A program made the translations under genes and the position numbers. Under the pieces are notes generated by a model. It made no database searches. It worked only from the letters and a program-made list of their open reading frames with translations, and had not been told where the DNA came from. A DNA stretch of 55,483 nucleotides from Candidatus Mediterraneibacter intestinipullorum (GTDB lineage: Bacteria; Bacillota; Clostridia; Lachnospirales; Lachnospiraceae). Below are positions 626 to 22,916 of this stretch, piece by piece; within the stretch, counting starts at the first letter, position 1, and the number at the start of each line of letters is the position of its first letter. Location: positions 1-55,483 of the forward strand of contig DWYM01000121.1 of assembly GCA_019118665.1 (NCBI GenBank). Direction: 5' to 3'.

Positions 626-638
626 ACTCCGCCCTCCT

Positions 639-1139: not shown

Positions 1140-1143
1140 TTGA

Positions 1144-5475: not shown

Positions 5476-5479
5476 TGTC

Positions 5480-6667: not shown

Positions 6668-6701
6668 CTGTCTCCCTCGCTCTTTCCTTGGTATGTAAGC
6701 T

Positions 6702-6929
6702 CTAACTGATGTTGAGTATGTCTCCTTCATAAATATTTCCCTGCCTGAATGTAAGCATTGGGTTTACATATCTGGTCTGTCTGCGGGAATATATCTTCAA
6801 CTGTATAGCCGGCGCCAGAGGAGCAAAGCATCCGTTTTCCACAAGGATTCTGTAAACCTCCTGTATCCGCTGCTCCGGTTTTACGATCACATCCAGGCTT
6901 CTCTCATTCTCCGTAATCGTAAGCCTCAT
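6702..6929 (-). CDS. esaB: Ubiquitin-like T7SS protein EsaB/YukD
   Basis: A 75-residue protein with the beta-grasp layout of YukD/EsaB: an N-terminal beta hairpin (MRLTITENERSLDVIV), a helix (IQEVYRILVENG) and C-terminal strands ending EGDILNIS. The family is a cytosolic regulator or accessory of T7SSb export. The ATG at 6929 is chosen because AGGAGGGAG stands just upstream; it overlaps the end of essA by 26 bases. Gene order esxA-essA-esaB-essB-essC is that of Staphylococcus aureus, which supports the call. No Gly-Gly conjugation tail is present, as expected for this family. Confidence 0.9.
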   Translation of the reverse strand: MRLTITENERSLDVIVKPEQRIQEVYRILVENGCFAPLAPAIQLKIYSRRQTRYVNPMLTFRQGNIYEGDILNIS

Positions 6930-7323
6930 CCTGAATCTCCCTCCTTTTCTTTTGTCTGTGTTTCTGATAGAAGAACAGTATGATAAGAAATGCCAGCACC
7001 ATGGCTTCGAGCGCCACCAGCATGCCCTGCCCTCCATTTCCGTACGCACGGCTCGCAGCGCCGGTCTTTGTCAGGGGCGAATCTATGGTGAATAGCTGCG
7101 CCCGGATCTCTGTCATATCTTTCACATCCTGGGTCGTATGCGTATCAAATATCTGGTCCCGGATCTCTGTCAGTTCTTTTTCCTGTTCTTTCTGAGCAGC
7201 TTTTATCTGCTGCTCTATATCAGGTGAGAACACAGGCATCCCATATAGATCGCTTAATGGGACCTGCTCGCCCTGATTCCCATCCAGAACGCCCGGGTTA
7301 AGTTCAATATCACTGTCCGCCAT
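6904..7323 (-). CDS. essA: Putative T7SS membrane protein EssA
   Basis: The 139-residue product has a soluble N-terminal part with a long charged helix (about 35-80), then one hydrophobic helix at about 100-119, followed by a short basic cytoplasmic tail (KHRQKKRR). EssA proteins are small, poorly conserved single-span membrane parts of T7SSb machines with this topology. Here it sits between esxA and esaB, exactly where essA stands in S. aureus. GGAGGTG precedes the ATG. I rely on topology and synteny rather than sequence motifs, so the identity is probable but not certain. Confidence 0.75.
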   Translation of the reverse strand: MADSDIELNPGVLDGNQGEQVPLSDLYGMPVFSPDIEQQIKAAQKEQEKELTEIRDQIFDTHTTQDVKDMTEIRAQLFTIDSPLTKTGAASRAYGNGGQGMLVALEAMVLAFLIILFFYQKHRQKKRREIQDEAYDYGE

Positions 7324-7350
7324 CTGCTACACCTCCATTTCTCGCAAAAT

Positions 7351-7377
7351 GGGGAAGCACATCTGCGGTGCTTCCCC
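7351..7377 (-). terminator. Hairpin after esxA, likely attenuator
   Basis: A perfect 10-bp stem (7351-7360 with 7368-7377, GGGGAAGCAC and its complement) with a 7-base loop lies 10 bases after the esxA stop and 28 bases before the essA start. On the minus strand it is followed only by ATTTTG, so it is a weak terminator or an mRNA-stabilising stem. Such an element would let esxA be made in excess over the membrane components. Confidence 0.7.
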
Positions 7378-7387
7378 TCGCTGTAAC

Positions 7388-7678
7388 TTATCCTCGGTTC
7401 GCAGTTCCGGCAGCCTGGTCAAATTCTGCATATTGCTCTGCATTTGTGACAACACCCTGACCGATGTCATTGATCAGGTCTCTCATTGCCTCAAAGCTTG
7501 GCGCCATCTCGGCTACTCTTGCGGCAAATCCTTCATAACCGCTTCCTTCCCAGAGTTCCGGGAGCTGGTTGTTGACAACATCATTCAGATAGTTCTGAAG
7601 CGTGGTCACATCTTCCACATGACTTGCGATCTCCCTTCCTCTCGCGATCACATCTTCTGTGTTCATTCTGATACTCAT
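7388..7678 (-). CDS. esxA: WXG100 secreted protein EsxA/YukE
   Basis: The 96-residue protein has the WXG100 features: a helical hairpin with W43-E-G45 at the turn and a C-terminal Y83-xxx-D87 element of the type used as a T7SS export signal. EsxA is secreted as a dimer and needed for machine activity. The ATG at 7678 is preceded by AAGGAGG; the frame is open further upstream but without a start site. It lies 74 bases downstream of esaA. A stable hairpin follows the gene, which fits high expression relative to the rest of the operon. Confidence 0.95.
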   Translation of the reverse strand: MSIRMNTEDVIARGREIASHVEDVTTLQNYLNDVVNNQLPELWEGSGYEGFAARVAEMAPSFEAMRDLINDIGQGVVTNAEQYAEFDQAAGTANRG

Positions 7679-7752
7679 AGTTTTTCCTCCTTCTCTGTCC
7701 CTGATTTCGCCAGGGATCATTGTAAAATATATTGCAACGCTGTCAAAACAGC

Positions 7753-10340: not shown

Positions 10341-11486
10341 TCACCTTCCCGCTATGATCACTCTGTCGATATTGTTCTGTTCGTCCAGAAGAAGGATATC
10401 TGCTGATTTCCCCTTTTCGATGCTGCCTATCTCATCATCCAGACCGATGAGCACAGCCGGGTTTTCCGTGAGCAGGGGAAGGATCTCTTCCTCGGTCCTG
10501 CCTGTGAACCTGAGCAGGTTCCGGTAAGCCTGGATAGTCGTGAGCGTGCTCCCCGCCCGGGTCCCATCGCTTTTTAACTTGGCATCGCCGTCCTCAACGA
10601 CCACATCATTTACCCCCAGCTTATACTCTCCGTCGGGCAGCCCTGCCGCCATGATGGAATCTGTGACCGCAACGACCCGCTCTGTCCCCTTGGCTTTCAG
10701 GATGATGCGGACCGTTCCCGGATGCAGGTGCCGTCCGTCGCATATCACCTCGCAGTATGCCTTGTCTGACTCCAGAAGGGCTCCGAATATGGCAGGGAAA
10801 TGCTGATGCATCAGTTTCATGGCATTTCCCACATGGGTACCCGCGTGGGCTCCGTTTTCGATCGCCCGCGCCGCGGTCTCATAGTCCGCGCCGGAATGTC
10901 CGATCGCCACCTGCATCCCAAGCCTTTTTAGCTCCGGTATAAACTCCGGCATCCCGGCCAGCTCCGGGGCGACCGTTATATACCTGATATCTCCTCCGGC
11001 CGCTTCCTGATAGCTCCTGAGCAGCTCGATATCCGGTGATTTTTTCAGCAGATGTTCGGGCATAGCGCCCTTGTACGCGGATGCCAGGAAAGGGCCCTCC
11101 AGATGGATGCCCGCGATCTTCGCTCCTTTATGCTCCATCTTTTTCCACTTCTTATACTCCCGGATGCACCATAGAGTCTGCTCCGGTGTATCTGTCAGTA
11201 TGGATATGAGAAAGGAAGTCGTTCCCTGGGACGCGAAGAACCGGCTGATCTTCTCGTAATCCTCGGCTGTGGCTCCGTTTACATCCACTCCCGCGCCTCC
11301 GTGGGTGTGGATATCAATAAAGCCGGGGACAGCCTTTTTGCCCTCACAGTCTACGACCTCATTGCAGCCCTGAGCATCCAGCACCCCGCACGCGGTCACT
11401 GCTTCGATCTTTCCGCCTTTTATCAGGATGTCCTTTTTTGAAAATCTGTGCTCCTGGTAAGTCTGTGCGTTTCTTAATAACAGCAT
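10341..11486 (-). CDS. nagA: N-acetylglucosamine-6-phosphate deacetylase family protein
   Basis: This amidohydrolase-fold enzyme would remove acetate from an N-acetyl amino-sugar 6-phosphate in the cytoplasm. The 381 residues show metal-binding HTH at H60/H62, the HLEGPF motif with E130, H197 in AIGHS, H218 near the substrate-binding AGTHVGNAM, and a catalytic Asp in AVTDSIMAAG. All catalytic positions of NagA are therefore present. GGAGGTG precedes the ATG. It is the last gene of a unit with an SsuABC-like importer, a NagB-like isomerase and an aldolase, and is followed by a terminator. GlcNAc-6-P is the family substrate; the gene context leaves open a related N-acetylated sugar phosphate. 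Confidence 0.92.
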   Translation of the reverse strand: MLLLRNAQTYQEHRFSKKDILIKGGKIEAVTACGVLDAQGCNEVVDCEGKKAVPGFIDIHTHGGAGVDVNGATAEDYEKISRFFASQGTTSFLISILTDTPEQTLWCIREYKKWKKMEHKGAKIAGIHLEGPFLASAYKGAMPEHLLKKSPDIELLRSYQEAAGGDIRYITVAPELAGMPEFIPELKRLGMQVAIGHSGADYETAARAIENGAHAGTHVGNAMKLMHQHFPAIFGALLESDKAYCEVICDGRHLHPGTVRIILKAKGTERVVAVTDSIMAAGLPDGEYKLGVNDVVVEDGDAKLKSDGTRAGSTLTTIQAYRNLLRFTGRTEEEILPLLTENPAVLIGLDDEIGSIEKGKSADILLLDEQNNIDRVIIAGR

Positions 11487-11536
11487 GTTTCACACCTCCT
11501 GTCACATCTGTCTGATATACTGTCTCTCATTTCGTC

Positions 11537-12694
11537 TTATCGTTCCATCTCTCTGTAACGCTGCGCCATCTCGTCCAGGCTGACCGGTTCGCCAAGCGGC
11601 GCTTTTCCGTAGGATCCAAACTGCACGATGAGGGTTCCCACCGCCTCTTTCACGCCTTTTTCAACGCACTGGAGGATGGCTTTTGTATCCTCGTCATCTG
11701 TTTCGCCGTACATGACAGCCGGCATGATAGGCGTAAGAAAGGCTCTCGGGTCAAACTGTTCTTTCTTCGTCTCCAGCAGTTCGTATATCTCTCCGATGGT
11801 CCCGCTGGTCCTCTTTTCCGGGTACTTATTGAAGAACTCTTTCATGTTCCTTGTCACTGCCAGCCGGATGTCCGTGTCCACGTTGATCTTCCGTATCCCA
11901 CACGGAATGGCGGCCCTAAGCTCATCCGCGGAGATGCCCGCCGTATCTGAAAGCTGTCCGCCCAGCGCGTTTATCTCATCTACGATGTATCTGGGCACTG
12001 TGGAGGAGCCATGGGACACAAGCGCGCAGAAGATGCCTTCATATGCCAGGCACTCGCTGATAGCTGTGGGGATCTCTTTCCTGAGTTTTACGTTTTTCCC
12101 TTTGGATGCACCATGCATTGTTCCATAGGAGATAGCAAGGGCGTCCACTCCTGTTTTCCTGATAAACTCTACTGCGCTGAGAGGATTCGTGTAAGTGGAA
12201 GCCGAAGAAAATACATGATCCTCCACTCCCGCAAGGACGCCCAGCTCGCCTTCCACGCTGACGCCTCTTTCGTGGGCGTATTTGACCACCTCTCTGGTGA
12301 GTTCCATATTTTCCTCAAAAGGCAGGGCAGACCCATCGATCATTACAGAGGTGTATCCCCCCTGGATGGCAGCCTTGCACGAGTCCAGGTCTCTCCCATG
12401 ATCCAGGTGCAGGACAACCGGGATGTCAGAAGTTTCTCCGTATTTTCTCACCGCATTGGCAATATTTTTCGCCCCGGCGATCTTATCCTCCAGGGAGGCA
12501 TTCATAAAATCAACTCTCCCGCCCATAAATCCGTTGGCAAGGTCTGCGCCCTGTAGGATGGCGGCGGAGCGGAAGGTCTCGTGTATCTCAATGACAGCCT
12601 TTGCCTGCGCAACGGCATTGACATTAAATGCGCCCTGTGCAAATCCGTTTTTTGCAGCCGATTCAAGAACCGGTCTTAATGGTACTAAAGGCAT
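11537..12694 (-). CDS. Class II fructose-bisphosphate aldolase family protein
   Basis: The 385-residue protein is a class II (metal-dependent) aldolase, with the HLDHGRD motif at 96-102 that supplies catalytic Asp and a zinc ligand. It also has GELG with the second-sphere Glu, SHGSSTVP, and the NVDTD phosphate-binding loop. The length is that of the longer class II subgroup. The reaction is reversible cleavage of a ketose 1,6-bisphosphate to dihydroxyacetone phosphate and an aldehyde. AAAGGGGGAAG precedes the ATG, 15 bases after the nagB-like stop. With the PFK-like and TIM-like genes nearby it would complete a route from a ketohexose 6-phosphate to triose phosphates. Fructose, tagatose or another ketose are all possible. 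Confidence 0.9.
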   Translation of the reverse strand: MPLVPLRPVLESAAKNGFAQGAFNVNAVAQAKAVIEIHETFRSAAILQGADLANGFMGGRVDFMNASLEDKIAGAKNIANAVRKYGETSDIPVVLHLDHGRDLDSCKAAIQGGYTSVMIDGSALPFEENMELTREVVKYAHERGVSVEGELGVLAGVEDHVFSSASTYTNPLSAVEFIRKTGVDALAISYGTMHGASKGKNVKLRKEIPTAISECLAYEGIFCALVSHGSSTVPRYIVDEINALGGQLSDTAGISADELRAAIPCGIRKINVDTDIRLAVTRNMKEFFNKYPEKRTSGTIGEIYELLETKKEQFDPRAFLTPIMPAVMYGETDDEDTKAILQCVEKGVKEAVGTLIVQFGSYGKAPLGEPVSLDEMAQRYREMER

Positions 12695-12709
12695 TTGTCT
12701 TCCCCCTTT

Positions 12710-13531
12710 CTAATCTTGTGTTCTGGCAACATATTCCGTAAACGACAATGTGATATCCGGGTGGTCTCTCAGGAGCGTCACCGGAAACGCTGCGGAAGTC
12801 TCACCATAGGCAGTCCGTCTCACGACCGCCCTGTGCCAGTTGCGGAAACATCCCAGCCGGATCTTTTTCGCTCCCAGTATCTCATATATCCCGATCGTGA
12901 CGCAGTACCGGGGCATATCTTCAAGGGCACCATTCAAATCTCCTATGGCGTTGGCTGTCCTCGTCTCCGGAGTGATCTCCAGCACCCGGGTCTTAAGAGC
13001 GCGGAATTCTTCCGGCGTCAGGGATCCATCAGCCTCATTGAACGCCACATGGCCGTTGATGCCGATTCCTCCGAAAGCGATGTCAACGCCTCCCAGCTCC
13101 CCGATCAGTTCCGGGATACGCTCCGGGCGCGCCGGATCAGGAAATACTCGCTGTTCCTCCGGCATGACCAGCTCCGGCCTGATCCTGGAATACACGTTGT
13201 TGTCCATAAATCCCCGGAAACTGAGGGGATGCTCTTTTGGCACCCAGTTTTTGTCATCGTCCAGATATTCATCCATGTTAATGAACCACACATCTTTCAG
13301 GCTGATACCCTGCTCATTTACCATCTGGACAAAATAAGGGTACTGTCCTACCGGTCCCACCGGGCAGATCATTACGGTTTTCTTCCCCTTTTCATTGTTG
13401 GCGCAGATCTCATCAATCATCTGGGCTGCCATTTTCCTGAACACGGTCTCATTGTCCTTTTCACAGAAAAGCGCCAGCTTTGGTCCATTGTCCAGAAGCT
13501 GATCTTTGTCATAAGAATAATATTCCTTCAT
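12710..13531 (-). CDS. nagB: Glucosamine-6-phosphate deaminase/isomerase family protein
   Basis: NagB-type enzymes convert an amino-sugar 6-phosphate to a ketose 6-phosphate and ammonia. In this 273-residue protein I see the FINMDEYL motif (D87-E88-Y89 region, general base) and GIGINGHVAFNE at 155-166, which holds the catalytic His and Glu. The order and spacing fit the family. The ATG at 13531 is chosen because AGGAGG stands 9 bases upstream. It follows an attenuating hairpin after the importer genes and precedes the aldolase. It is divergent from classic NagB (for example long inserts around 95-140), so substrate specificity may differ. It ends in TAG. Confidence 0.85.
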   Translation of the reverse strand: MKEYYSYDKDQLLDNGPKLALFCEKDNETVFRKMAAQMIDEICANNEKGKKTVMICPVGPVGQYPYFVQMVNEQGISLKDVWFINMDEYLDDDKNWVPKEHPLSFRGFMDNNVYSRIRPELVMPEEQRVFPDPARPERIPELIGELGGVDIAFGGIGINGHVAFNEADGSLTPEEFRALKTRVLEITPETRTANAIGDLNGALEDMPRYCVTIGIYEILGAKKIRLGCFRNWHRAVVRRTAYGETSAAFPVTLLRDHPDITLSFTEYVARTQD

Positions 13532-13556
13532 CAATCTCTGCCTCCTGTCCTTCATT

Positions 13557-13590
13557 TAAAAAGCTCAGGATGCCAGAGGCATCCTGAGCT
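13557..13590 (-). terminator. Strong intercistronic terminator/attenuator hairpin
   Basis: A perfect 13-bp stem (13562-13574 with 13578-13590, AGCTCAGGATGCC) with a 3-base loop is followed on the minus strand by TTTTT. It lies 12 bases after the stop of the substrate-binding lipoprotein gene and before the nagB-like gene. It probably reduces transcription of the enzymes relative to the binding protein. Confidence 0.88.
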
Positions 13591-13602
13591 GGTCTTAAAA
13601 CT

Positions 13603-14637
13603 TTATTCTCCCGCTTCTGTCATGATGTCAAGCATTACATAGTCTGTCACCGCCGGATCCACTGTGACCGCGCCCTGATCGAGCAGGTTCTGTTTCTGCG
13701 TCGTGTAGTATCCTTCTACCGTTCCGTCAGCAGCTCCCTCGGAGACCTCTTTGCCTGTCAGCCAGTCCGCGTCGCCCCTCTGGCTGTATACGGTGTCATA
13801 ATCTGTCGCCGTCTGATCCGCAACCCACTGAGCTACTTCCTCATAGTTTTCATCCGCCGCGTAGTCCATTCCTTTGAACAGGGCCCTTGTGAATTTTACA
13901 AGGGTGTCTCTGTTGTCTTCCGCGTAGGAAGGGGTACAGATCCAGCTCGCAAGTGAGACCGTGGTATCCTTAAATGTCATGTTGTCGCAGAGCTTTGCCG
14001 CTCCCTCTACCTCATCCAGGATCGTGAGGGTTCCCGGAGACCATGTCGCCGCCGCGTCAACGCTTCCGGATATGATGGCTGTCGGGATGTTCTCTGCCGC
14101 CATGTCTGTCGCCTGGATGTCATCCATTGTCATCCCCGCGCTGGAAAGTGCAAGTTCCAGAATATCCTGGCTGGATGTTCCTGATGAATACGCGACTGTC
14201 TTCCCTGCCAGGTCTTCGATGCTCGTGACTCCCGGACCTCCGATCACAGCGTCGCCGTTGGAGATATGGGAGAGCGCGAAGATCGTTGCATTTCCTTCAA
14301 TGCAGAGCTTATGCGCGCCCTGCCCAATGTAGCCGATGTCGATGGAACCTGACTCCATTGCGGAGATGATGTTCGGTCCATCCTGGAACTCCGTCAGCTT
14401 CACCTCGATGCCTTCTTCCTCGAAGTATCCCTTCTCGATCGCCGTCATTACTGACCAGAGACTTCCATAGTTAGGCATATACGCTACATTGAGCGTGATC
14501 GTCTCCTGGGAGGTCTGATCCGCGCCGTCCGTTCCACTGTCCGCCGTGCCGCCGCCCTGGGTGTCGTTTCCTCCGCATGCCGCAAGCGATAACATCATCG
14601 CTGCCGCAAGTCCTGCTGCAAGAAATTTTTTCTTCAT
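13603..14637 (-). CDS. SsuA/TauA-like substrate-binding lipoprotein
   Basis: The 344-residue product starts with a lipoprotein signal peptide ending in the lipobox LAAC (Cys21), then an acidic Gly/Thr linker and a periplasmic-binding fold of the SsuA/TauA/NMT1 class. Features include NVAYMPNYGSLW, the ESGSIDIGYIG loop and TAIISGSVDAAATWSP. Relatives bind aliphatic sulfonates, taurine, nitrate or pyrimidine precursors; the ligand here is not readable from sequence. AAGGAGG precedes the ATG at 14637. It is encoded after its ATPase and permease, and is separated from the following catabolic genes by a strong hairpin, as is common for binding proteins made in excess. Confidence 0.9.
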   Translation of the reverse strand: MKKKFLAAGLAAAMMLSLAACGGNDTQGGGTADSGTDGADQTSQETITLNVAYMPNYGSLWSVMTAIEKGYFEEEGIEVKLTEFQDGPNIISAMESGSIDIGYIGQGAHKLCIEGNATIFALSHISNGDAVIGGPGVTSIEDLAGKTVAYSSGTSSQDILELALSSAGMTMDDIQATDMAAENIPTAIISGSVDAAATWSPGTLTILDEVEGAAKLCDNMTFKDTTVSLASWICTPSYAEDNRDTLVKFTRALFKGMDYAADENYEEVAQWVADQTATDYDTVYSQRGDADWLTGKEVSEGAADGTVEGYYTTQKQNLLDQGAVTVDPAVTDYVMLDIMTEAGE

Positions 14638-14683
14638 AATAGTTCCTCCTTTGAAAATATTTTTGAATGGCTTTCCTTCGCCA

Positions 14684-15475
14684 TTACTTACGCACTTCAA
14701 GGTATTCCTGATATACCTGCTTCCATATGTAGTTTTTCAGTTCCATGAACCTCGGGCTCATCTTTGTCTCCTGATCTCTCGGATAAGGAATGTCAATATC
14801 CACGATATCACGGATGCGGCCCGGTCTTGCGCTCATGATCACTACCCGGGTCGCAAGGATGATCGCCTCTTCTACATCGTGGGTGATGAAAAAGCATGTT
14901 TTCCTCTCATTTTCCCATGTGAGGAGCAGTTCCGACTGGAGCTGCGTCCTTGTCTGGGCGTCCAGGGCTCCAAATGGCTCGTCCATCAGGAGCACTTCCG
15001 GCTGTACCGCATAGGCGCGGGCGATCGCCACACGCTGTTTCATACCTCCTGAGAGCTCTTTCGGATAGCTGTCCGCGAATTCCTCCAGACCTACCTTTTT
15101 CAGATATTTCATGGCGGTCTCCCGGGCTTCCTCATTGCTCATGCCCTTCAGCTTCAGCCCGAACATTACGTTTTTGATGACAGTCAGCCAGGGGAACAGC
15201 GCATACTGCTGAAATACAACGCCCCTCTCTGTACCTGTCCCTTCCACTTTCTTCCCATCCACATACACCGCTCCGCTTGTGGCGGGCAGCAGACCTGCTA
15301 TTATGTTGAGGAGGGTAGATTTCCCGCAGCCCGACGGACCTACCACGCAGATAAATTCATTTTCCTTTATATCCAGGTCCACGCCGTTCAGAGCCACCAT
15401 GGGACCTTTTTTCGTATCAAAGATTTTTTCCACATGGTCGATTTTTACTTTTACACTTCTCTCTTCTCCTGCCAT
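14684..15475 (-). CDS. SsuB/TauB-like ABC transporter ATPase
   Basis: A 263-residue nucleotide-binding subunit with Walker A GPSGCGKST (about 46-54), signature LSGGMKQR (about 143-150), Walker B VLLMDEPFGALD and the switch His in FFITHDVEEA. It matches the nitrate/sulfonate/taurine ABC family in length and in the GALD D-loop. It overlaps the end of the permease gene by 25 bases and precedes the binding lipoprotein. It should energise import of the compound that feeds the downstream deacetylase/isomerase/aldolase genes. Confidence 0.93.
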   Translation of the reverse strand: MAGEERSVKVKIDHVEKIFDTKKGPMVALNGVDLDIKENEFICVVGPSGCGKSTLLNIIAGLLPATSGAVYVDGKKVEGTGTERGVVFQQYALFPWLTVIKNVMFGLKLKGMSNEEARETAMKYLKKVGLEEFADSYPKELSGGMKQRVAIARAYAVQPEVLLMDEPFGALDAQTRTQLQSELLLTWENERKTCFFITHDVEEAIILATRVVIMSARPGRIRDIVDIDIPYPRDQETKMSPRFMELKNYIWKQVYQEYLEVRK

Positions 15476-16257
15476 CCTGTCAGCTTCCTTTCAAGAATCT
15501 TGATCACCTTTTCACAGGTCATGCCTATGATACCTATCAATATGATGTAGAGCAGCATAGGCGCCACTTCAAAACTGTTGTTCAACGACCGTATCCTCAT
15601 TCCGAGTCCTGCTACGGCTCCTGTCGATTCCGCCGCGATCAGCGTTGTGAGGGCAACGCTCACTCCAAGCCGGACGGCTGTTATGATGAACGGTGTGGTT
15701 GCCGGAAAGATCACCTTCACCAGGATGTCCCTGTCCTGGGCTCCCAGCACCTTCGCCGCTTTTATCAGCGTCTCGTCCACGTTGCGCACACCCTGATAGA
15801 TCGTCACGCTCATGATAAGGAATGTGGCGAGCCAGATGACGATCACCTGAGGTCTCCTGCCCACGCCCGCGGAGATGACCACAAGGGGAACATACGCCAG
15901 CGGAGGGATATTACGGATAAACTGGATCCAGGGCTCTACTATATTTCTGACCGGACGGTACCACGCCATCAGGAACGCCACCGGCACCGCTGTCACAAAT
16001 CCAAGGATGAATCCGAGAAATACGGAAATCATACTGCTTGAAAAATCCTGCCACAGCACTCCTCTTTCCACCATCGTCCTGCACGCTTCTATAATTGATG
16101 GGACAAATGGGAAGCTTCGTGCTGTTGACGGATTGACTGATAAGAGATACCACAGCACGATGGCTGCCAGGAATGACAGGAGCAGCCACGCCCAGTTAGG
16201 TATTTTCCCTATGATATCTTTTTTTTGCTTTATATTTTTCGTCTTTTTTTCACTCAT
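15451..16257 (-). CDS. SsuC/TauC-like ABC transporter permease
   Basis: The 268-residue protein has six predicted membrane helices. It carries the coupling-loop (EAA) sequence of the BPD_transp_1 family: KAAKVLGAQDRDILVKVIFP at about 170-189. Start at 16257 follows AGGAGG. It is the first gene of the importer unit. Its promoter has an extended -10 (TGCTATAAT) and lies just downstream of a perfect AAACGTTT-centred palindrome. Family members transport sulfonates, taurine, nitrate or thiamine precursors; the actual substrate is open. Confidence 0.92.
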   Translation of the reverse strand: MSEKKTKNIKQKKDIIGKIPNWAWLLLSFLAAIVLWYLLSVNPSTARSFPFVPSIIEACRTMVERGVLWQDFSSSMISVFLGFILGFVTAVPVAFLMAWYRPVRNIVEPWIQFIRNIPPLAYVPLVVISAGVGRRPQVIVIWLATFLIMSVTIYQGVRNVDETLIKAAKVLGAQDRDILVKVIFPATTPFIITAVRLGVSVALTTLIAAESTGAVAGLGMRIRSLNNSFEVAPMLLYIILIGIIGMTCEKVIKILERKLTGWQEKREV

Positions 16258-16319
16258 TCTTGTCTCTTCCTCCTGTTTCCACCACTTATTGCACAATCAC
16301 TCCCTGTTATTTAATGATA

Positions 16320-16328
16320 ATTATAGCA
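16320..16328 (-). promoter_or_regulatory. Extended -10 promoter of the importer unit
   Basis: On the minus strand TGC-TATAAT forms a perfect extended -10 (hexamer 16320-16325, TG element 16326-16328). No good -35 is seen at 17 bp, so the promoter probably needs the extension or an activator. It is 62 bases upstream of the permease start. Confidence 0.75.
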
Positions 16329-16357
16329 CATTCGTCGACCAAAACACACTTTTTTCG

Positions 16358-16371
16358 CCCAAACGTTTGGG
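16358..16371. promoter_or_regulatory. LacI-type operator, site 1
   Basis: A perfect 14-bp palindrome, CCCAAACGTTTGGG, with the central CG typical of LacI-family sites. Its centre (16364.5) is 42 bp upstream of the centre of the importer unit's -10 hexamer. The same core occurs at 20049 and 23031. Confidence 0.8.
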
Positions 16372-16409
16372 TATGTCGAAATCCGTCTTCCGAAGGAACG
16401 GTTTCCACA

Positions 16410-17897
16410 TCACATGTGATGGTGGACCATATGAGTATAATCGTCTTCTCTGCCATAAGTCTCGTTTTCCAGCATCAGATGCACCGCACTCAGCTTAAAG
16501 GTCTGGGGGAGGGCCAGAATGGCAGGATTTTCTCCTGTATATTTTTTCTTCGCGTCTTCCAGTGCCTCTTCGATGGTAGCCCTTGTCTTCAGTCCCATGC
16601 CTCTGGCGTATCCCGGCTGTTCCGCTCCGCACAGATAGATGGCAGCTGTGTTCATCTCCGCGATCTGCCCGCAGCTCATCATGGAGAATCCATGGAAGGG
16701 ATGGAACGCGTTGCAGAAACGATATTTGCGGATGTACTCTTCGTTTGTGGCGAAATACTCTCCGTACCGGTTCATATCTGTCAGCACATTCATGCCGTCC
16801 TTCTGGAACATCTCATAGCACTCTCTGAGATAAGGCCACAATTCATCGTGGAAATAGCCGTTGCAGGTGGACGCGCAGATGAAAACACAGTTGTCTTTCA
16901 TGATACGCTTATGGCGGATGACCTGAGCGGACAGCGCCTGCATCAGCATGATGGGATTCGTTCCCATGCCATCTCCATAGTGGAAAAACTGCGGCATCCC
17001 AAACACGATAATGTCATATTTTTGTTTTGCCCACGGCACATAAGTCCTCTTGTCAGCCATTTTCCAGGACCGCGGCTGCATCTCCGCGGCGTAGCCGCTG
17101 TTGATCTCGATCTGTCGGGATTTTGTATCCAGCACCGCATCGCAGCAGAAAAATTTTTTGCCCATGCATTTTTCCATGTGCATGCCGATCTCATCAAACT
17201 TGGTGCGCATCAGGGATTTTCCGCTGACCGGAGTAAAATCCTTCCGGTGCATGACCTCGGGAACATGGTGGGAGGCAATGGATCTCCAGTGGGTGATCCC
17301 TGTCGCGCAGTGCTTGTACCCTCCGGAATACCCTCCATATGGATTTCCCTGTGTGTGCCCTATGAGGATGGCCACATCACTGTCATAGACATATTTGTTC
17401 ATGATCACCGGGTCGCCCCTGTCTGTTGTGCCCAGGTCTACCAGATGGTCATAATCCTCACTGTCGTGGTTGATGATCTGGTGTGTATACCAGAACTCGT
17501 CAAACAGCTCTTTTCCCAGCACATTAAAAATCTCTTTCTCTGTATTTTTTCTGTGCAGTCCGTTTGAACAGATCAGAAGGATATCTTTTTTCTCTACACC
17601 GGCGGCGTACAGTTCTTTGAGGATCAATTTGATAGACACCTTGCGGTGGGATGTGGGCTGCTCTCCTCCTTTTACACGATCCGGGAACACGATCGTCACT
17701 TTTGATCCTTTTTTTGCCAGTTTTGACAGCGGTTCCATCCCTATTGGATTGCGGATGGACTCCAGTGTCTTTGCTTCCAGCTCTTCTTCAGGAATATAGG
17801 GCGGATCCGGCACTGTCACCCCCGGGATAAAAACATCCGTGTTGTCCGGCAGCTCCGCGCTGACCGTTCCATGTCCGTATTCAAAATCCAGTTTCAT
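16410..17897 (-). CDS. LarA-like (DUF2088) nickel-pincer racemase/epimerase family protein
   Basis: LarA-type enzymes use a nickel-pincer nucleotide to racemise or epimerise 2-hydroxy acids by hydride transfer. The 495-residue product has the family pattern: GLHRKNT with H115, an HD at 144-145, then GHTQGN with H181 and GGYSGGYKH with K195. H203 and H210 are candidates for the nickel ligand. Lactate racemase itself is about 425 residues, so this is a longer subgroup. GGAGAGG precedes the ATG. It lies 47 bases after the TIM-like gene in the pfk unit. No larB, larC or larE cofactor genes are in the window. The substrate may be a sugar acid or other hydroxy acid; this is inference. Confidence 0.8.
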   Translation of the reverse strand: MKLDFEYGHGTVSAELPDNTDVFIPGVTVPDPPYIPEEELEAKTLESIRNPIGMEPLSKLAKKGSKVTIVFPDRVKGGEQPTSHRKVSIKLILKELYAAGVEKKDILLICSNGLHRKNTEKEIFNVLGKELFDEFWYTHQIINHDSEDYDHLVDLGTTDRGDPVIMNKYVYDSDVAILIGHTQGNPYGGYSGGYKHCATGITHWRSIASHHVPEVMHRKDFTPVSGKSLMRTKFDEIGMHMEKCMGKKFFCCDAVLDTKSRQIEINSGYAAEMQPRSWKMADKRTYVPWAKQKYDIIVFGMPQFFHYGDGMGTNPIMLMQALSAQVIRHKRIMKDNCVFICASTCNGYFHDELWPYLRECYEMFQKDGMNVLTDMNRYGEYFATNEEYIRKYRFCNAFHPFHGFSMMSCGQIAEMNTAAIYLCGAEQPGYARGMGLKTRATIEEALEDAKKKYTGENPAILALPQTFKLSAVHLMLENETYGREDDYTHMVHHHM

Positions 17898-17944
17898 ATT
17901 TTTACCTTCCTCTCCGGCTTATACTCAAGCCTCTGCTATCATCA

Positions 17945-18790
17945 TTACTGACCGCTGTTCTCCATATAGATATGGATGATCTCCAGGTACTCATCCGGGT
18001 AAAAGCCTATCTCACCGCTGAATCTGGTCAGCGCGATCAGCCCGCCGTCAATCTCCGGGATAGAAGCCAGCATTCCTGCATTGTCCTGCTTCAGCCCCCC
18101 TCCATATATCACGTCCATTCCCCCGGTCACTTCCTTTATGTATCCGGCAATCTTCTCGATATAATCCTTGCCCGGCGGTGTCTTCCCCGGCCCTATCGCC
18201 CACACGGGCTCATAGGCGATCACTGCCCGGCTTTTGTCCACGCCTTCCAGACCGATGGTAAGCTGCTGCCCCAACACCTCTTTCCACCTGGGCTGTTCTT
18301 CCTCCGTCTCCCCGATACAGTAGAGGACGTCCATTCCCTCACCTGCCGCCGCGCGGATCTCGCTGTTCAGTATCCGGTTGACCGCCTCCGCATCCGCTGC
18401 TCCGCCCAGCTCCATGATGCCCAGCTTATCCCGGCGCTCCTCGCAGTGGCCGATGATGACGCTTTCGCATCCCAGGGCTTTTGCCGCGCTGGCAGGGCGA
18501 TTGGTCGTAAACGCCCCGAAATTCCCGCCCGGAGCTGTGTTCTCACGGTACACACCCTGGCATCCGATGCGGATCGGGCTGTCTCCGGTTTTCGCCGACG
18601 CCGCTCCCAGGATATGCGCCTCCGGGAAATACATGGTAAATTCCACTTTCCCGCTGTCATAAGAGCGCAGGGCTTCTTCGGTCCGCTCCACGATATATGC
18701 GCCCCAGTCCGCTGCCGGGGCAATGCGGTTCACGCCGCCAAGACTTACCGGCACGTCAAACCGTTTTAAATTAAGGCATATGTGTTTCAT
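17945..18790 (-). CDS. Triosephosphate isomerase family protein, divergent
   Basis: A 281-residue TIM-barrel protein with the catalytic set of triosephosphate isomerase in place: K9 in NLK, H115 in IIGHCEERR and E194 in AYEPVWAIGPGKTPP. The phosphate loop is YGGGLK (229-234). The usual GNWKMN, IGHSERR and YGGSV motifs are all altered and the protein is about 30 residues longer than normal. It is therefore more likely a dedicated catabolic paralog than the glycolytic enzyme; erythrulose-phosphate isomerases belong to the same family. The start overlaps the stop of the pfk-like gene (ATGA), so the two are translationally coupled. Confidence 0.82.
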   Translation of the reverse strand: MKHICLNLKRFDVPVSLGGVNRIAPAADWGAYIVERTEEALRSYDSGKVEFTMYFPEAHILGAASAKTGDSPIRIGCQGVYRENTAPGGNFGAFTTNRPASAAKALGCESVIIGHCEERRDKLGIMELGGAADAEAVNRILNSEIRAAAGEGMDVLYCIGETEEEQPRWKEVLGQQLTIGLEGVDKSRAVIAYEPVWAIGPGKTPPGKDYIEKIAGYIKEVTGGMDVIYGGGLKQDNAGMLASIPEIDGGLIALTRFSGEIGFYPDEYLEIIHIYMENSGQ

Positions 18791-19971
18791 TTTTGTATCT
18801 CCTTTTTATATTTGTCCAGACGGATGAATTCCGGGACCTCTCCCCCGATCAGAGGGCTGCACCACCGGGCAAACGCTTCGGTAACATCGTTTCCTCTTTC
18901 ATTGATATATTCATCCGGCAGCGTTTTTTCGTACATCATCACTTCTTTGATCGGAACCCGGAATGTCTCCATCCTGTATTCTCCGATGGGAGCTTCCTTT
19001 CTTCGGAATCCGATCATCACGCCGCTGCAGCCTTCCATAGCGGCGCGCAGCGCTTCCTTTCCCGCCAGGATTGCCTCCTTGCGGTCTACTTCCGACTGCC
19101 ATGGAACAGACGCCCTTCCGCAGATTCCCGGCTTTTCCCCACGGGCCTTGATCCCAAGCCTGCGCACGACCAGACCTGCCAGGTAGGAGCTCACATCTCC
19201 ATAATAAACAGCCCGCTCCGTCCGGAAGATGGGTTCGACCACAGGATTCCCATCCGCGTCCCTGAGTCCCTCGCTGGCCACGACAACAACCTGTCCCCGC
19301 CTGTCATAGAGGGCTTTCACATCCTCCAGAAATTCTTCTTCATTAAATGGTCTTTCCGGCAGATAGATCAAATGGGGAGCGTCCCCCTTCTCTTTCCTTG
19401 CCAGAACCGAAGCCGCCGTCAGCCATCCCGCGTTTCTGCCCATGGCTTCCACCACGCAGACGTGGATCGGGAGAGACCGGACATCCTCTCCCACCTCATG
19501 GACTGTTCCCGCCAAAAACCGCGCCGCGCTCCCATATCCCGGCGTGTGGTCTGTGACCGCGATATCGTTATCGATCGTTTTGGGTATCCCCACCACTTTG
19601 ATCTCGCCGCCGCACGCCTCATCGATCTTTCCGCAGGTATCCATAGTTCCGTTGCCTCCGTTGAGCAGGACGTACTTTATCCCATATTTTCTGAATATGC
19701 CCGGCATCTTCGCATAATCTCCATCCTCCAGGGCGAACCGTGAAGAGCCGATCGCAGAAGCCGGTGTCCGGAGCAGAAGCTCTCTTTCGTCCTCCGGTAC
19801 CCGGAGCAGGTCAAGAAAATCTTCTTCCAGCACTCCTTTCGTTCCTCCAAGAGCGCCGTACACTTTCCCTATCCCGCCGCTCTCAACAGCTTGTTCTATC
19901 ACTCCATACAGAGAAGCGTTGATTACCGGCGTAGGTCCTCCTCCATGAATAACAAGCACATTATCTTCCAC
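18787..19971 (-). CDS. 6-phosphofructokinase family protein
   Basis: The 394-residue product belongs to the PfkA superfamily that phosphorylates a ketose 6-phosphate at C1. Visible motifs are GGGPTPVINAS (10-20), GGNGTMDT at 105-112 where standard enzymes have GGDGS/T, PKTIDND at 130-136, and EAMGRNAGW near 173-181. PKTIDND is typical of the pyrophosphate-dependent and related clades. The Asn in GGNGT resembles clostridial paralogs with GGNDS. The phosphoryl donor (ATP or PPi) is not decided by sequence alone. GTG start with a perfect AGGAGGTG upstream. It heads the unit pfk-tim-larA, behind an operator shared with the importer unit. Confidence 0.85.
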   Translation of the reverse strand: MEDNVLVIHGGGPTPVINASLYGVIEQAVESGGIGKVYGALGGTKGVLEEDFLDLLRVPEDERELLLRTPASAIGSSRFALEDGDYAKMPGIFRKYGIKYVLLNGGNGTMDTCGKIDEACGGEIKVVGIPKTIDNDIAVTDHTPGYGSAARFLAGTVHEVGEDVRSLPIHVCVVEAMGRNAGWLTAASVLARKEKGDAPHLIYLPERPFNEEEFLEDVKALYDRRGQVVVVASEGLRDADGNPVVEPIFRTERAVYYGDVSSYLAGLVVRRLGIKARGEKPGICGRASVPWQSEVDRKEAILAGKEALRAAMEGCSGVMIGFRRKEAPIGEYRMETFRVPIKEVMMYEKTLPDEYINERGNDVTEAFARWCSPLIGGEVPEFIRLDKYKKEIQK

Positions 19972-20016: not shown

Positions 20017-20048
20017 CAAAAGAAAATTATGCAGTTTTTTATTTACTC

Positions 20049-20056
20049 AAACGTTT
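20049..20056. promoter_or_regulatory. LacI-type operator, site 2 (divergent region)
   Basis: The core AAACGTTT lies in the 201-base divergent region between the pfk unit and lacI. Its centre (20052.5) is 42 bp from the centre of the pfk -10. It is 43 or 54 bp from two TATAAT sequences (20093-20098, 20104-20109) that could serve lacI, so it may control both directions. Confidence 0.75.
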
Positions 20057-20172
20057 TCACCGATGTTTCTGGCTTTTTTTCATTGTATATTTTATAATAT
20101 CAATATAATATTGTTGATATTTTTATCTATATTAACAATCCTTGATTCTGACAGATTCACCGGGAGGTTTAT

Positions 20173-21201
20173 ATGACATTAAAAGATATCGCAAAGGAAG
20201 CGGGAGTCTCCATCTCCACTGTATCGAGAGTCATCAACCAGAAGGGAACTTCCGCCGCCAGCAAAGAAGTCCAGGACAGGATATGGGAGATCGTCCGCAG
20301 GACCGGGTACTCGCCCAATACAGCCGCAAGGGATTTAAAGAGCGGGAACAGTGTGTCCGCAAAGAAGCCGAATCGTTCCATCGCCTGTATCTTTGCCCGC
20401 ACAGAGGATCCCATGAAGGATATTTTCTTTTCGACTTTGGCAAGAGGACTGGAGGAAGAGGCGTTCCATCATAATTACATCGTGAAGCATCTGATCACCT
20501 TTGTGGACATTGACAATCCTGCCGAATTCCGCCACGTCACGGGAAACCGGGTGGACGGCGCGGCCGTGCTGGGCAGGTGCAACCGGCAGATGCTCAGCTT
20601 TCTGAAAAAGCATTTTAACAATGTGGTATACAGCGGCCTGAATACGATCAACGCCAAATATGACCAGATCATCTGCGACGGCTACCAGGCCGCAGGTTCT
20701 GTAATGGAAAGGCTCATGGAACTGGGGCACACTCATATCGCTTACATCGGAGACACGAAGGAAGAAAACAGATATGAGGGATACTGCGCCGCCCTGTCCG
20801 CCAGAAAACTCCCTCTGCGGCGTGAACTCGTGGTCCATTCCCCCATGACAACAGAAGGCGGCTACCAGGGCGCCCTTCGCCTGCTTGAGAAAAGCAGGGA
20901 CTTTACTGCCATATTCTGTTCCAATGACACCGTTGCCATCGGAACATTGCGCGCTCTGCAGGAAAAGGGTCTCAGGATCCCAAAGGACGTATCCCTGATC
21001 AGCATCGATGATATTGATGTCGTTCAGTACATCACTCCCCTCCTCACCACGATCCATATCCCGATCAAAGAGATGGGGAAGACAGCCGCGAAAATCCTGA
21101 TCGACAGGATCGAGGGCGGACACCGCCTGCCCATGAAGATCCTCCTGCCTTTTTCGCTTGTATGGAGGGAAACCTGCGCGGAACCGCGCCGGACTTTATA
21201 A
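20173..21201 (+). CDS. LacI-family transcriptional regulator
   Basis: The 342-residue protein has an N-terminal LacI helix-turn-helix (TLKDIAKEAGVSISTVSRVI) and a hinge helix (NTAARDLKSG) whose Leu would intercalate at a central CG. A periplasmic-binding-like sugar-sensing core follows, including IAYIGD and the FCSNDTVAIGTLRAL and SLISIDDIDV segments. GGGAGG precedes the ATG. It is divergent from the pfk unit with one AAACGTTT site between them. The same palindrome precedes the importer unit and the ECF/kinase unit, so this is the likely local regulator. Operator sites about 51 bp upstream of start sites suit an activator, or a repressor acting by looping. The effector is unknown. Confidence 0.92.
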   Translation: MTLKDIAKEAGVSISTVSRVINQKGTSAASKEVQDRIWEIVRRTGYSPNTAARDLKSGNSVSAKKPNRSIACIFARTEDPMKDIFFSTLARGLEEEAFHHNYIVKHLITFVDIDNPAEFRHVTGNRVDGAAVLGRCNRQMLSFLKKHFNNVVYSGLNTINAKYDQIICDGYQAAGSVMERLMELGHTHIAYIGDTKEENRYEGYCAALSARKLPLRRELVVHSPMTTEGGYQGALRLLEKSRDFTAIFCSNDTVAIGTLRALQEKGLRIPKDVSLISIDDIDVVQYITPLLTTIHIPIKEMGKTAAKILIDRIEGGHRLPMKILLPFSLVWRETCAEPRRTL

Positions 21202-21211
21202 GATGATAAAG

Positions 21212-21268
21212 AAAGAGGATGTGTGACAGATCCGAACCGTATAGCCGTTTCTGTCACACATCCTCTTT
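21212..21268. terminator. Bidirectional terminator between lacI and the kinase gene
   Basis: A perfect 19-bp stem (21212-21230 with 21250-21268) encloses a 19-base loop. On the minus strand it is followed by TTTCTTTAT and serves the kinase gene, whose last codons and stop (21254-21256) lie inside the stem. On the plus strand it follows lacI, with a short TTTGAATAT tail. Confidence 0.8.
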
Positions 21269-22312
21269 GAATATGAGATCGCATGTCTTCCTTATCCCAA
21301 ACGTATCGAAATAGGTCTCTTCTTTGGGAATCCATTCATTCACAAAGCGGGACAGCATGTACGCTCCATTCCGCTTTAATATCCGTTCCTTCTGCTCCTC
21401 CGGGCTGATATCCAAAAACACCTTCACGTCATAACAACCGCAAAAACGCGGATGGCAGCTATAAGTGCCTTCGATGATGACAAGGTCCTTCATCCGGACC
21501 CGGATCTGCTCGGAAAACTCCCCGCTCACACAGTCATAGCGGCGGTAATCCAGAACGTTCTCCCCCGACTTCAAAGGTTTGACAACTTCTTCCATGAACC
21601 GCTCATAGTCAATATTTCCCCCGGCTTCCTTCAGACGCTCCTCCGTCCTCTGGACAGGTCTTAAGAAGAAATGATCCATATGGATCACAGAGCTGGGATA
21701 GATACCGGACAGAAGGCGGGCAAGCCAGCTCTTTCCGCTTCCGCAGCGGCCATCCACCGCAAGGATCAGGGGTCTGTTTTTCTCCAGCCTGCTGTCAATG
21801 CTCTCAAACAGATCCAGATACTGAAGATAGTCCTCGCTGATAACTCTGTACGATGGATGGTAAAGCCTTCTGTATGTATCCGAGTGGCGAATGAGAGGAT
21901 ATCCTTTTTCCCTGTAAACGTCAAGCCAGTCCTCCAGTTCCCGGCATTCAAAGGGCAGGCTTCCCTCCCGGCACATTTCCACCAGCAGCTCCAGTTTTCC
22001 TTCAAACACCTTTTCACTGGCGTTTACTCTGCGGGCTGAATTCACAAAGAACCGGTTCACAGTCTCAAGGCTGATATGCTCGCTCATCCCCTGCAGAAAA
22101 AGCCGCCCCATATGATTTCCGATTTTTTCCCACCGCATGGGGCCCTGCCCAAGTTCAAGCCCCTGGCACTCCCGCTCCAGCCTCTCCAGGCTGGCAGCCG
22201 GGTTCTTTATCATATGACCGCCGCCGAACTCACTCTGGTACAGCAGCTTTACCATATCAGCAATCTCCATCATGGGATACCGTTTCAGATGTTCTAAAAT
22301 ATACTCTCTCAT
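21254..22312 (-). CDS. P-loop kinase with uridine-kinase-like domain and unknown N-terminal domain
   Basis: Of 352 residues, the C-terminal half (about 185-350) is a uridine kinase-like P-loop fold. It has Walker A GRCGSGKS near 188-195, a substrate-binding HMDHFF, and VIIEGTYSC as Walker B strand. The N-terminal 180 residues form a helical domain that I do not recognise. The gene follows an ECF S component by 37 bases and shares its promoter, so the kinase probably phosphorylates the imported compound. Uridine, pantothenate-like and other small hydroxylated molecules are all possible. No strong ribosome site is seen before the ATG. The gene is short of nothing obvious and ends inside a terminator stem. 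Confidence 0.75.
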   Translation of the reverse strand: MREYILEHLKRYPMMEIADMVKLLYQSEFGGGHMIKNPAASLERLERECQGLELGQGPMRWEKIGNHMGRLFLQGMSEHISLETVNRFFVNSARRVNASEKVFEGKLELLVEMCREGSLPFECRELEDWLDVYREKGYPLIRHSDTYRRLYHPSYRVISEDYLQYLDLFESIDSRLEKNRPLILAVDGRCGSGKSWLARLLSGIYPSSVIHMDHFFLRPVQRTEERLKEAGGNIDYERFMEEVVKPLKSGENVLDYRRYDCVSGEFSEQIRVRMKDLVIIEGTYSCHPRFCGCYDVKVFLDISPEEQKERILKRNGAYMLSRFVNEWIPKEETYFDTFGIRKTCDLIFKEDV

Positions 22313-22349: not shown

Positions 22350-22916
22350 TTATTCCCCGCTGCCGCGCTTATGGAATCCGAGCACATTCTCCAGGAGCAT
22401 CACCAGTCCCGGCACAATGCACAACAGAAGGATAGTTCCCGGGATCGTGGAAATGATCGAGCCCTCCACAAAAGAAGAAAGGCTGTAACTTCCTCCCGAA
22501 AGACCGGCTGTCAGCACGCCTGCAATGCCGTTCACGATCCTGCCCGCCACGATCCCGGCGATCAGAGCGCCATACAAAGACAGCATGGTGTATCTTCTCT
22601 TTTTCATGATCCCCGCGCACACTCCTGCGTAGGCTGCCAGTTCAAGCATCATGCAGACCCCTGTGGGAAACACAGGCGGCATGCCGGTGATCAGGCAGGA
22701 CAATCCCACTGTACACACGGCGCCGGCCATTCCCAGATACGGCCCGCACAAAAACGCTCCGATAAAGACAGGGATATGCATCGGAAGGAACGCGATCCCA
22801 AGACCTAATCTGTGGAATCCCATCGGAACAAAGATCCCTGCGGCTATGAAAAACAGCCATATGATGATTCTCCGGGCTTCCAGGCTCTGTACGGTTTCTT
22901 TTACTCGTGTCATCAT
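22350..22916 (-). CDS. ECF transporter S component
   Basis: A 188-residue integral membrane protein with about six hydrophobic helices. Features seen in substrate-binding S components include the PMHIPVFIGAFLCGPYLGMAGA segment and a later TGMPPVFPTG loop. S components pair with a shared EcfAA'T module encoded elsewhere and import vitamins or nucleoside-like compounds. GAGAGGA precedes the ATG pair. The promoter has TGCTATAAT, and a LacI-type palindrome lies 54 bp further up. The neighbouring kinase gene suggests import followed by trapping through phosphorylation. The substrate cannot be read from the sequence. Confidence 0.85.
   Translation of the reverse strand: MMTRVKETVQSLEARRIIIWLFFIAAGIFVPMGFHRLGLGIAFLPMHIPVFIGAFLCGPYLGMAGAVCTVGLSCLITGMPPVFPTGVCMMLELAAYAGVCAGIMKKRRYTMLSLYGALIAGIVAGRIVNGIAGVLTAGLSGGSYSLSSFVEGSIISTIPGTILLLCIVPGLVMLLENVLGFHKRGSGE

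Follow-up and report, generated by a model that had tools for sequence, protein, structure and literature searches.

Which compound does a bacterium take up and degrade when a single operon joins enzymes of amino sugar breakdown, an importer of the sulfonate type and a relative of the lactate racemase LarA? The question is raised by nine near-contiguous genes on the (-) strand of contig DWYM01000121.1 of Candidatus Mediterraneibacter intestinipullorum (assembly GCA_019118665.1; 2.5 Mb, 83% complete, 123 contigs), running from position 19971 down to 10341 of a stretch of 55,483 nucleotides, referred to here as the window. A preliminary description, made from the sequence alone, had read these genes as a self-contained route from an imported N-acetylated sugar to triose phosphates. 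The operon is real and conserved, its importer and a frequent neighbour point to sulfur, and residues for binding a distal phosphate appear to be replaced in four of its enzymes. We propose a sulfoglycolysis-type pathway for an N-acetylhexosamine whose C6 bears an acidic sulfur group; the best candidate is 6-O-sulfo-N-acetylglucosamine (6-sulfo-GlcNAc). We give this reading just under an even chance. In gene order, the operon comprises:

18787..19971, (-) strand: PFK, 6-phosphofructokinase of the pyrophosphate (PPi)-type family (PF00365; best NCBIfam model PRK14072, diphosphate-dependent type, 403 bits against a cut-off of 273; nearest solved structures the PPi-PFKs 3k2q and 3hno)
17945..18790, (-) strand: triosephosphate isomerase (TIM)-like isomerase or lyase (PF00121, 119.5 bits; residue alignment)
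16410..17897, (-) strand: LAR, LarA-like protein assigned to the LarASp/LarABw subfamily (Lar_N PF09861, 140.8 bits; matches to 9q2u and 9q3j)
15451..16296, (-) strand: permease of an ATP-binding cassette (ABC) transporter, SsuC/TauC type (BPD_transp_1 profile)
14684..15475, (-) strand: ABC ATPase, TauB/SsuB/NtrCD type (ABC_tran profile)
13603..14637, (-) strand: lipoprotein substrate-binding protein, SsuA family (NMT1 PF09084; SsuA_fam TIGR01728, 130.8 bits against a cut-off of 163.5, with a query one codon longer; start placed at the signal peptide)
12710..13555, (-) strand: NagB-like deaminase/isomerase of a new subfamily (motifs PVGPVGQYP, GINGH and FRxWHR; TIGR00502, 96 bits, below the equivalog cut-off of 237)
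11537..12694, (-) strand: class II ketose-phosphate aldolase, 385 aa (PF01116, 253.8 bits; GADLAN at the Ser50 segment)
10341..11486, (-) strand: NagA-like deacetylase (TIGR00221, 289 bits, above the nagA equivalog cut-off of 225.65; His229 in place of a phosphate-site Arg)

The families were assigned by profile searches of the operon proteins against Pfam and NCBIfam. All of the enzyme and transporter types listed in the preliminary description are present on one strand, and its importer is unusual as described, belonging by profile search to the SsuA/TauA kind and not to the sugar ABC transporters or the phosphotransferase system (PTS). The NagB-like protein is a remote relative of NagB, with no Pfam family match at E<=0.001. 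The profile search of the operon proteins found no PTS and no hexosamine kinase; it also found no SqvD isomerase (PF02952) and no dehydrogenase, hence no sulfolactaldehyde reductase or dehydrogenase, the scan for these covering the operon proteins and not the rest of the genome. Aldolase and TIM are not the sole copies: elsewhere in the genome there are three further matches to PF01116, one of them with an in-frame stop, and a housekeeping TIM that scores 326 bits against 119 for the operon copy. The search for further copies covered these two families.

In regard to conservation, a scan of genome contigs yielded 179 relatives, from which the best 80 loci were kept; as identity is 72% or higher in every one, close relatives are favoured in this sample. 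Gene calling recovered LAR in 79 of the 80. Neighbours were counted where LAR has 8 kb or more on each side, as it does in 45 loci, a sample that was thus chosen by LAR itself. Clustering of open reading frames (ORFs) with a codon score placed the TIM-like gene in 41 of these loci, NagA and the SsuA-like binding protein in 32 each, the aldolase in 31, the NagB-like gene and the ATPase in 30 each, the permease in 28, PFK in 26 and a TauE/SafE protein in 21. The tblastn search, with the window proteins and one representative per TauE clade as queries, returned TIM-like sequences in 42, NagA in 32, the aldolase in 31 (28 at 40% identity or more), NagB in 30, the binding protein in 28 (26 at 40% or more), PFK in 26 and TauE in 21. 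Chance clustering is rejected, as the set recurs across many genera, and a self-contained, glycolysis-like route for an N-acetylated sugar is borne out as a conserved gene set. The closest named relatives of the genome are mostly Mediterraneibacter assemblies. LAR as such is held by Lachnospiraceae, Gemmiger, Flavonifractor, Spirochaetales, Dielma, Caproiciproducens and Desulfosporosinus, not all of them with the full set. Cultured carriers with both NagA and the NagB-like gene include Coprococcus catus, Flavonifractor sp. An82, Blautia sp. MSJ-19 and Desulfosporosinus metallidurans.

A sample of 299 genomes of the window's family, one per genus, contained a close LAR (at least 69% identity) in 23; 29 genomes matched LAR at E<=1e-20, and the six beyond the 23 carry distant LarA types. 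The LAR-linked TIM was present in all 23, together with a housekeeping TIM (>300 bits) in 22, the latter not being found in G234, and a single TIM was present in 11 of 11 chosen LAR-less genomes. LAR and the TIM-like protein are the most constant members of the set in the LAR-chosen sample. Relatives of the NagB-like protein were found in 11 of 398 genomes of the phylum at E<=1e-25, the window genome included, and nine of the ten others were examined, none with LAR or a TIM-like gene. In locus L126 (7196-15634), a GINGH-type NagB-like gene has NagA-like, aldolase, oxidoreductase and PfkB-looking genes for neighbours, and LAR and the TIM-like gene are both absent; this cluster possibly serves to degrade an unphosphorylated amino sugar.

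If the set is a pathway, the first candidate for its substrate is the ordinary GlcNAc-6-phosphate, and this can be addressed through the residues. Sequences were aligned to solved enzymes and then across the family, window sequence included, at positions of NagA, NagB, aldolase and TIM that we take to be the binding sites of the distal phosphate. Where the NagA structures 2vhl, 3egj, 1o12 and 7nut carry Arg, all 46 operon-type sequences carry His (His229 in the window). All 45 NagB-like sequences have Ile, Val or Leu at the Arg172 position, an altered PTGGTP loop and the new basic motif FRxWHR, while the catalytic positions Asp72, His143 and Glu148 are kept throughout. In the TIM-like proteins, Gly occupies the Ser211 position in 69 of 69 (GGSV changed to GGGL), and the GGASL-type segment has become ALTRF with small variations, the replaced loop holding an Arg in 66 of 69; the catalytic His and Glu are kept in all 69 and the Lys in 68, with one gap. 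For the aldolase, GADLAN replaces the Ser50 segment, with Ala at the Ser50 position in 51 of 53 sequences, and the evidence is mixed, since the second C6-phosphate contact, at the Arg259 position, is still Arg in 49 of 53. Judged from these alignments, NagA, NagB, aldolase and the TIM-like protein have probably lost distal-phosphate contacts and kept their catalytic residues.

Loss of such contacts in four enzymes makes a 6-phosphate route unlikely, and the start from an N-acetylhexosamine 6-phosphate and the end in glyceraldehyde phosphate, both assumed in the preliminary description, are not supported. We therefore reject the explanation that divergent paralogues form an ordinary GlcNAc-6-phosphate route in which LAR is an unrelated passenger. 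A NagA score above the nagA cut-off and the retained Arg259-position residue speak for it, yet the altered contacts are fixed family-wide, the operon is without PTS or hexosamine kinase, and LAR and the TIM-like protein are the members that vary least; we regard it as very improbable. On this view, the lack of a kinase for the first phosphorylation, pointed out in the same description, raises no difficulty: a ketose substituted at C6 could receive its phosphate on C1 from PFK, in the manner of sulfo-Embden-Meyerhof-Parnas pathway 2 (sulfo-EMP2).

The position and the nature of the group that replaces the phosphate are the next questions. PFK acts on C1 and retro-aldol cleavage requires a free hydroxyl on C4; with the amino group on C2, the extra acid group must therefore be on C6. 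As to its nature, a TauE/SafE gene lies beside LAR in 21 of 45 loci against none of 29 control windows in the same tblastn test. The controls, from the same phylum and 490 kb in total, comprised 9 windows centred on genes of remote NagB-like proteins and 20 centred, in LarA-less genomes, on the kinase gene discussed below; they span 3.4 to 20 kb, a little to much shorter than the LAR loci (~21 kb). The TauE/SafE proteins fall into two clades (PF01925, 108 and 101 bits for their representatives), and sulfonate pathways are known to include exporters of the TauE type. An SsuA-like binding protein or TauE is present in 39 of the 45 loci, and genes related to the importer also occur in variant loci in which permease and ATPase are doubled. 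The suggestion of an anionic or sulfonated substrate in the preliminary description is thus probably right.

Alternatively, C6 could bear a carboxylate, the substrate being an aminouronate, or no more than a hydroxyl. In the carboxylate case, cleavage by the aldolase would yield tartronate semialdehyde, an alpha-hydroxy acid that would suit both a LarA-like enzyme and a TIM-type isomerization to hydroxypyruvate; LarA enzymes use alpha-hydroxy acids (PMC7583248), and the L126 cluster, with its PfkB-looking kinase (named from sequence), suggests unphosphorylated amino sugars. This leaves the SsuA-like importers and TauE exporters unexplained, and a neutral C6 is further argued against by the conserved Arg in the TIM-like loop and by FRxWHR in the NagB-like protein, so that we consider this pair of alternatives quite unlikely.

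A closer competitor is a true sulfonate, either a 6-deoxy-6-sulfo amino sugar or sulfoquinovose entering through variants with genes resembling phosphoglucose isomerase (PGI) or phosphomannose isomerase (PMI), in a new branch of sulfo-EMP2 in which the TIM-like protein and LAR replace sulfolactaldehyde reductase. The linkage with TauE and SsuA-like genes would fit, a beta-hydroxyacid dehydrogenase adjoins LAR in three loci (L077, L086 and L094), and known sulfolactaldehyde reductases belong to the superfamily of that enzyme. The kinase and aldolase families are those of SqiK (PF00365) and SqiA (PF01116) of sulfo-EMP2 (PMC9594981), and both occur in the operon; sulfoquinovose itself is described as abundant. 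On the other hand, neither SqvD nor GH31 is among the annotated neighbour families, most neighbours being unannotated, and NagA and NagB imply an N-acetyl amino sulfonate. Such compounds are rare in nature, and we hold a sulfonate to be unlikely.

The sulfate ester thus remains preferred, and the 6-O-sulfo-amino-sugar route, taken singly, is a tentative reading held somewhat below an even chance. Mucin commonly contains 6-sulfo-GlcNAc, which some gut bacteria free with GH20 sulfoglycosidases (PMC10154618, PMC11659886); no pathway consuming it was found among titles from literature searches limited to open-licence papers. Several points weigh against it. No TauE match was found by tblastn in the whole window or in its five nearest loci, and 24 of the 45 long-flank loci have none within reach. 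SsuA-family proteins also carry sulfur-free compounds, and the window protein falls below the SsuA_fam cut-off. The aldolase keeps its Arg259 contact, and the Asp141 position of the NagB-like protein is Asn in 43 of 45 and Thr in 2 of 45, so that this protein may not even act as a deaminase. The lost phosphate contacts could also be accounted for by a sugar with a neutral C6-OH. Finally, the 6-sulfo substrate is a proposal drawn from genes and alignments, and variant loci pair LAR and the TIM-like gene with transketolase, aldolase-II, PGI- or PMI-like genes or a PTS.

According to the proposed 6-sulfo-GlcNAc route, the SsuABC-type transporter would import the sulfo N-acetylhexosamine, NagA would deacetylate it, and the NagB-like enzyme would convert the 2-amino aldose into a 6-sulfo ketose and ammonia. 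PFK would then phosphorylate C1, and the aldolase would cleave the product into dihydroxyacetone phosphate (DHAP) and 3-sulfo glyceraldehyde. As the TIM-like protein is the most constant neighbour of LAR, both probably act on the three-carbon sulfo piece, and the TauE/SafE protein, where present, could export the sulfur anion. The least certain steps are those of the TIM-like protein and LAR. A TIM-type enediol bearing a good leaving group can expel it; the TIM-like enzyme might in this way release the sulfo group and form methylglyoxal, after which, once the aldehyde is hydrated, the nickel cofactor of LAR could accept its hydride and deliver it back to C2. The outcome would be a stable acid such as lactate, and one catalytic His would suffice. 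Both steps are speculative guesses, and desulfation of the triose by the two proteins, taken singly, is doubtful.

The variant loci allow for a wider task of the TIM-like/LAR unit. Of the 80 LAR loci, 10 carry PGI-like and 7 PMI-like genes (the assignment was checked on one representative per type), and it looks as if other 6-sulfo hexoses join the same lower route. In L055, L062, L063, L085 and L111, LAR and the TIM-like gene accompany split transketolase genes and a doubled SsuA-like transporter, most of these loci also having genes for a short-chain dehydrogenase/reductase, an alcohol dehydrogenase, a ribulose-phosphate epimerase and an aldolase-II; here, perhaps, another pathway feeds the pair. 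L058, L060 and L102 combine the pair with PTS EIIC and a PMI-like isomerase, with no PFK seen in the locus. In L077, L086 and L094, LAR has no adjacent TIM-like gene, and a protein of the phosphodiesterase/sulfatase superfamily adjoins together with the beta-hydroxyacid dehydrogenase.

LAR itself matches 9q2u/9q3k with 900 bits and 9q3j with 861 bits over 480-490 aa, structures that we take, by residue numbering, to be LarASp and LarABw, respectively. It keeps His115, Asn185, Lys195, His210 and His211, of which His115, Asn185 and Lys195 are retained in 80 of 80 sequences (the window and 79 loci), and an identical Asn and Lys motif occurs in 24 LAR loci of the 23 family genomes. By sequence, LAR belongs to the LarASp/LarABw subfamily, in which Asn holds the position of the second catalytic His of other LarA enzymes, LarASp binds the nickel-pincer nucleotide and does not racemize lactate, LarABw was obtained cofactor-free, and the function is reported as unknown despite solved structures (PMC12393405, PMC12611868). 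The same papers note TIM, aldolase, NagB, PGI and PFP as gene neighbours. The recognition of a LarA relative in the preliminary description was therefore correct, although the subfamily is one described in 2025, and its statement that no such pathway was known comes close: that LarA relatives are associated with genes for TIM, fructose-bisphosphate aldolase (FBA) and NagB appeared in print in 2025, without a pathway (PMC12611868). Spread of LAR by plasmids was rejected, as none of 72,556 plasmid records matches over 80% of the query, nine having distant LarA matches. In genome G198 (C26:46199-47799; loci L026, L034 and L218), LAR lies in two pieces, apparently broken, beside TIM-like, PFK, aldolase, NagA and NagB genes.

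A further question is how LAR obtains its cofactor, and here the genes upstream of the operon become relevant:

20048..20058, strand not applicable: probable LacI operator core CAAACGTTTTC (identical in 6/6 aligned intergenic regions, window included)
20173..21201, (+) strand: LacI-family regulator, divergent from the operon (PF00356, PF13377)
21254..22312, (-) strand: UDK, nucleoside-kinase-fold protein (PF00485, 22.2 bits; predicted structure)
22350..22916, (-) strand: ECF-S, predicted substrate-binding subunit of an energy-coupling factor (ECF) transporter (PF12822; predicted structure)

The operator core, with the palindrome AAACGTTT, sits between the LacI gene and the operon, and a LacI orthologue holds the same position in L035-L038 and L046. 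The opposite side of the operon (344-10113) has ORFs that, by eye only, resemble a type VII secretion cluster (EssC-, EssB-, YukD-, EsaA- and WXG100-like).

LarC (PF01969) was found neither in the window genome nor in six more of the 23 family LAR genomes, these six being 94-100% complete, and the same seven have no LarE above cut-off; G062 has LarC only. In the named-locus set, 17 of 45 genomes are without LarC, including all five of the window type and 8 of 10 spirochaetes, and LarE agrees with LarC (43 genomes searched) except in G710, which has LarC only. The Lys and His of LAR are kept in every sequence examined. Many carriers, in which LarC and LarE were not found, thus show no known means of making the cofactor, LarB not having been searched. 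In Blautia sp. MSJ-19 (L092, 8248-9096), a larC-like gene, named from sequence, directly precedes the TIM-like gene and LAR.

In the window lineage, G244 and G288, the ECF-S/UDK pair is part of the LAR operon or adjoins it. UDK, which carries an N-terminal domain of ~165 aa, barely exceeds the PF00485 cut-off of 22 bits, and its model (predicted local distance difference test, pLDDT, 95) has uridine-cytidine kinases as best Foldseek matches; for ECF-S (pLDDT 89), the best matches are RibU and ThiT at E ~0.01, with none below 0.001. We propose UDK as a cofactor-salvage kinase and ECF-S as an importer of the cofactor or a precursor. The preliminary description had offered the ECF-linked kinase, which lies outside the positions it covered, as the missing sugar kinase; a role as hexosamine kinase is rejected in view of the nucleoside-kinase fold and of a presence that tracks the absence of LarC. 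In the family sample (kinase at E<=1e-10, Lar_N at E<=1e-8), the kinase is present in 13 of 16 genomes with Lar_N and no LarC against 5 of 52 with both (Fisher p=1.2e-7, genomes treated as independent). Among genomes with no Lar_N match it is again inverse to LarC, being present in 25 of the 97 that lack LarC and in 5 of the 134 that have it. All 7 LarC-less LAR genomes of the family carry the kinase, compared with 3 of the 16 that possess LarC. Relatedness was partly handled by taking one genome per genus and by a LAR tree of 66 genomes, in which LarC status changes ~11 times and the kinase is present in 13 of the 23 genomes without LarC and in 5 of the remaining 43 (p=2.7e-4, with no correction for relatedness).

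The presence of the kinase in LarC-less LarA genomes suggests cofactor salvage: the nickel-pincer nucleotide or a precursor could be taken up as a nucleoside by ECF-S and phosphorylated by the kinase, a possibility that, taken singly, we place clearly below an even chance. Against it, the pattern is weak in the named-locus set: once L081, which duplicates genome G288, is removed, 6 of its 16 LarC-less LAR genomes have a kinase match at E<=1e-10 and 10 have none; those lacking it are the spirochaetes L044, L045, L047, L052, L053 and L061, as well as L060, L064, L078 and L035, the last in an assembly that also shows no housekeeping TIM match. Moreover, 25 LarC-less family genomes that have the kinase lack a Lar_N match, the kinase also occurs in 5 of the 52 with Lar_N and LarC, and 5 of 48 family kinase matches are weak or fragments (their omission gives 12 of 16 and 4 of 52, p=3.4e-7). 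We know of no biochemistry for nickel-pincer nucleotide salvage, and no report of it was among the titles from the literature search.

Kinases in LarA-less genomes could be explained by other users of the cofactor. LarB/C/E homologs occur in ~15% of genomes without LarA, implying such users (PMC11796402), and in the family sample 134 of 299 genomes have LarC and no Lar_N match, pointing to unknown nickel-pincer cofactor users. ECF-S was looked for near kinase genes and in LAR loci. A survey of the fetched loci with the kinase, from 40 loci of which 20 came from LarA-less LarC-less genomes, found no common partner within 9 kb besides ECF-S, the exceptions being ABC ATPases (7 loci) and a protein of 142 aa (4 loci). 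The combined proposal, that 6-sulfo amino sugars are burnt without a sulfatase, that the TIM-like protein and LAR strip the sulfo group to leave a usable acid, and that, in lineages such as that of the window, ECF-S and the kinase scavenge the LAR cofactor in place of LarB/LarE/LarC, is improbable as a whole.

If the 6-sulfo-GlcNAc route is true, many gut Firmicutes and spirochaetes could use a sulfated mucin sugar, freed by other bacteria, in a sulfatase-free manner, with bearing on mucus turnover and gut sulfur. If salvage is true, it would be a first sign of nickel-pincer nucleotide sharing between bacteria, like that of vitamins. For the LarASp/LarABw enzymes there is now a proposed pathway, together with a candidate class of substrates and a set of partners for assays, and the role of Asn-type LarA enzymes becomes directly testable.

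Compared with known systems, the operon shares with the GlcNAc-6-phosphate Nag pathway the order of deacetylation, deamination/isomerization, phosphorylation and cleavage, and differs in its replaced phosphate sites, its NagB-like protein outside Pfam families and its transporter type. With sulfo-EMP2 it shares a PFK-family C1 kinase, a class II aldolase and, as proposed here, the products DHAP and a C3 sulfo aldehyde; however, it starts from an N-acetyl amino sugar via NagA and the NagB-like enzyme instead of SqvD, and would use TIM-like and LarA-like enzymes for the C3 piece. Synthesis by LarB/LarE/LarC would supply the cofactor bound by the Lys and His of LAR, whereas in the window genome, where LarC and LarE were not found, the ECF-S/kinase pair adjoins the operon. 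Finally, LAR resembles the LarASp/LarABw subfamily in sequence, in the His115/Asn185/Lys195 pattern and in its sugar-enzyme gene neighbours; in difference to it, 23 of 66 LAR carriers examined here are without LarC, and the neighbourhood is resolved into a candidate pathway with its own importer and exporter.

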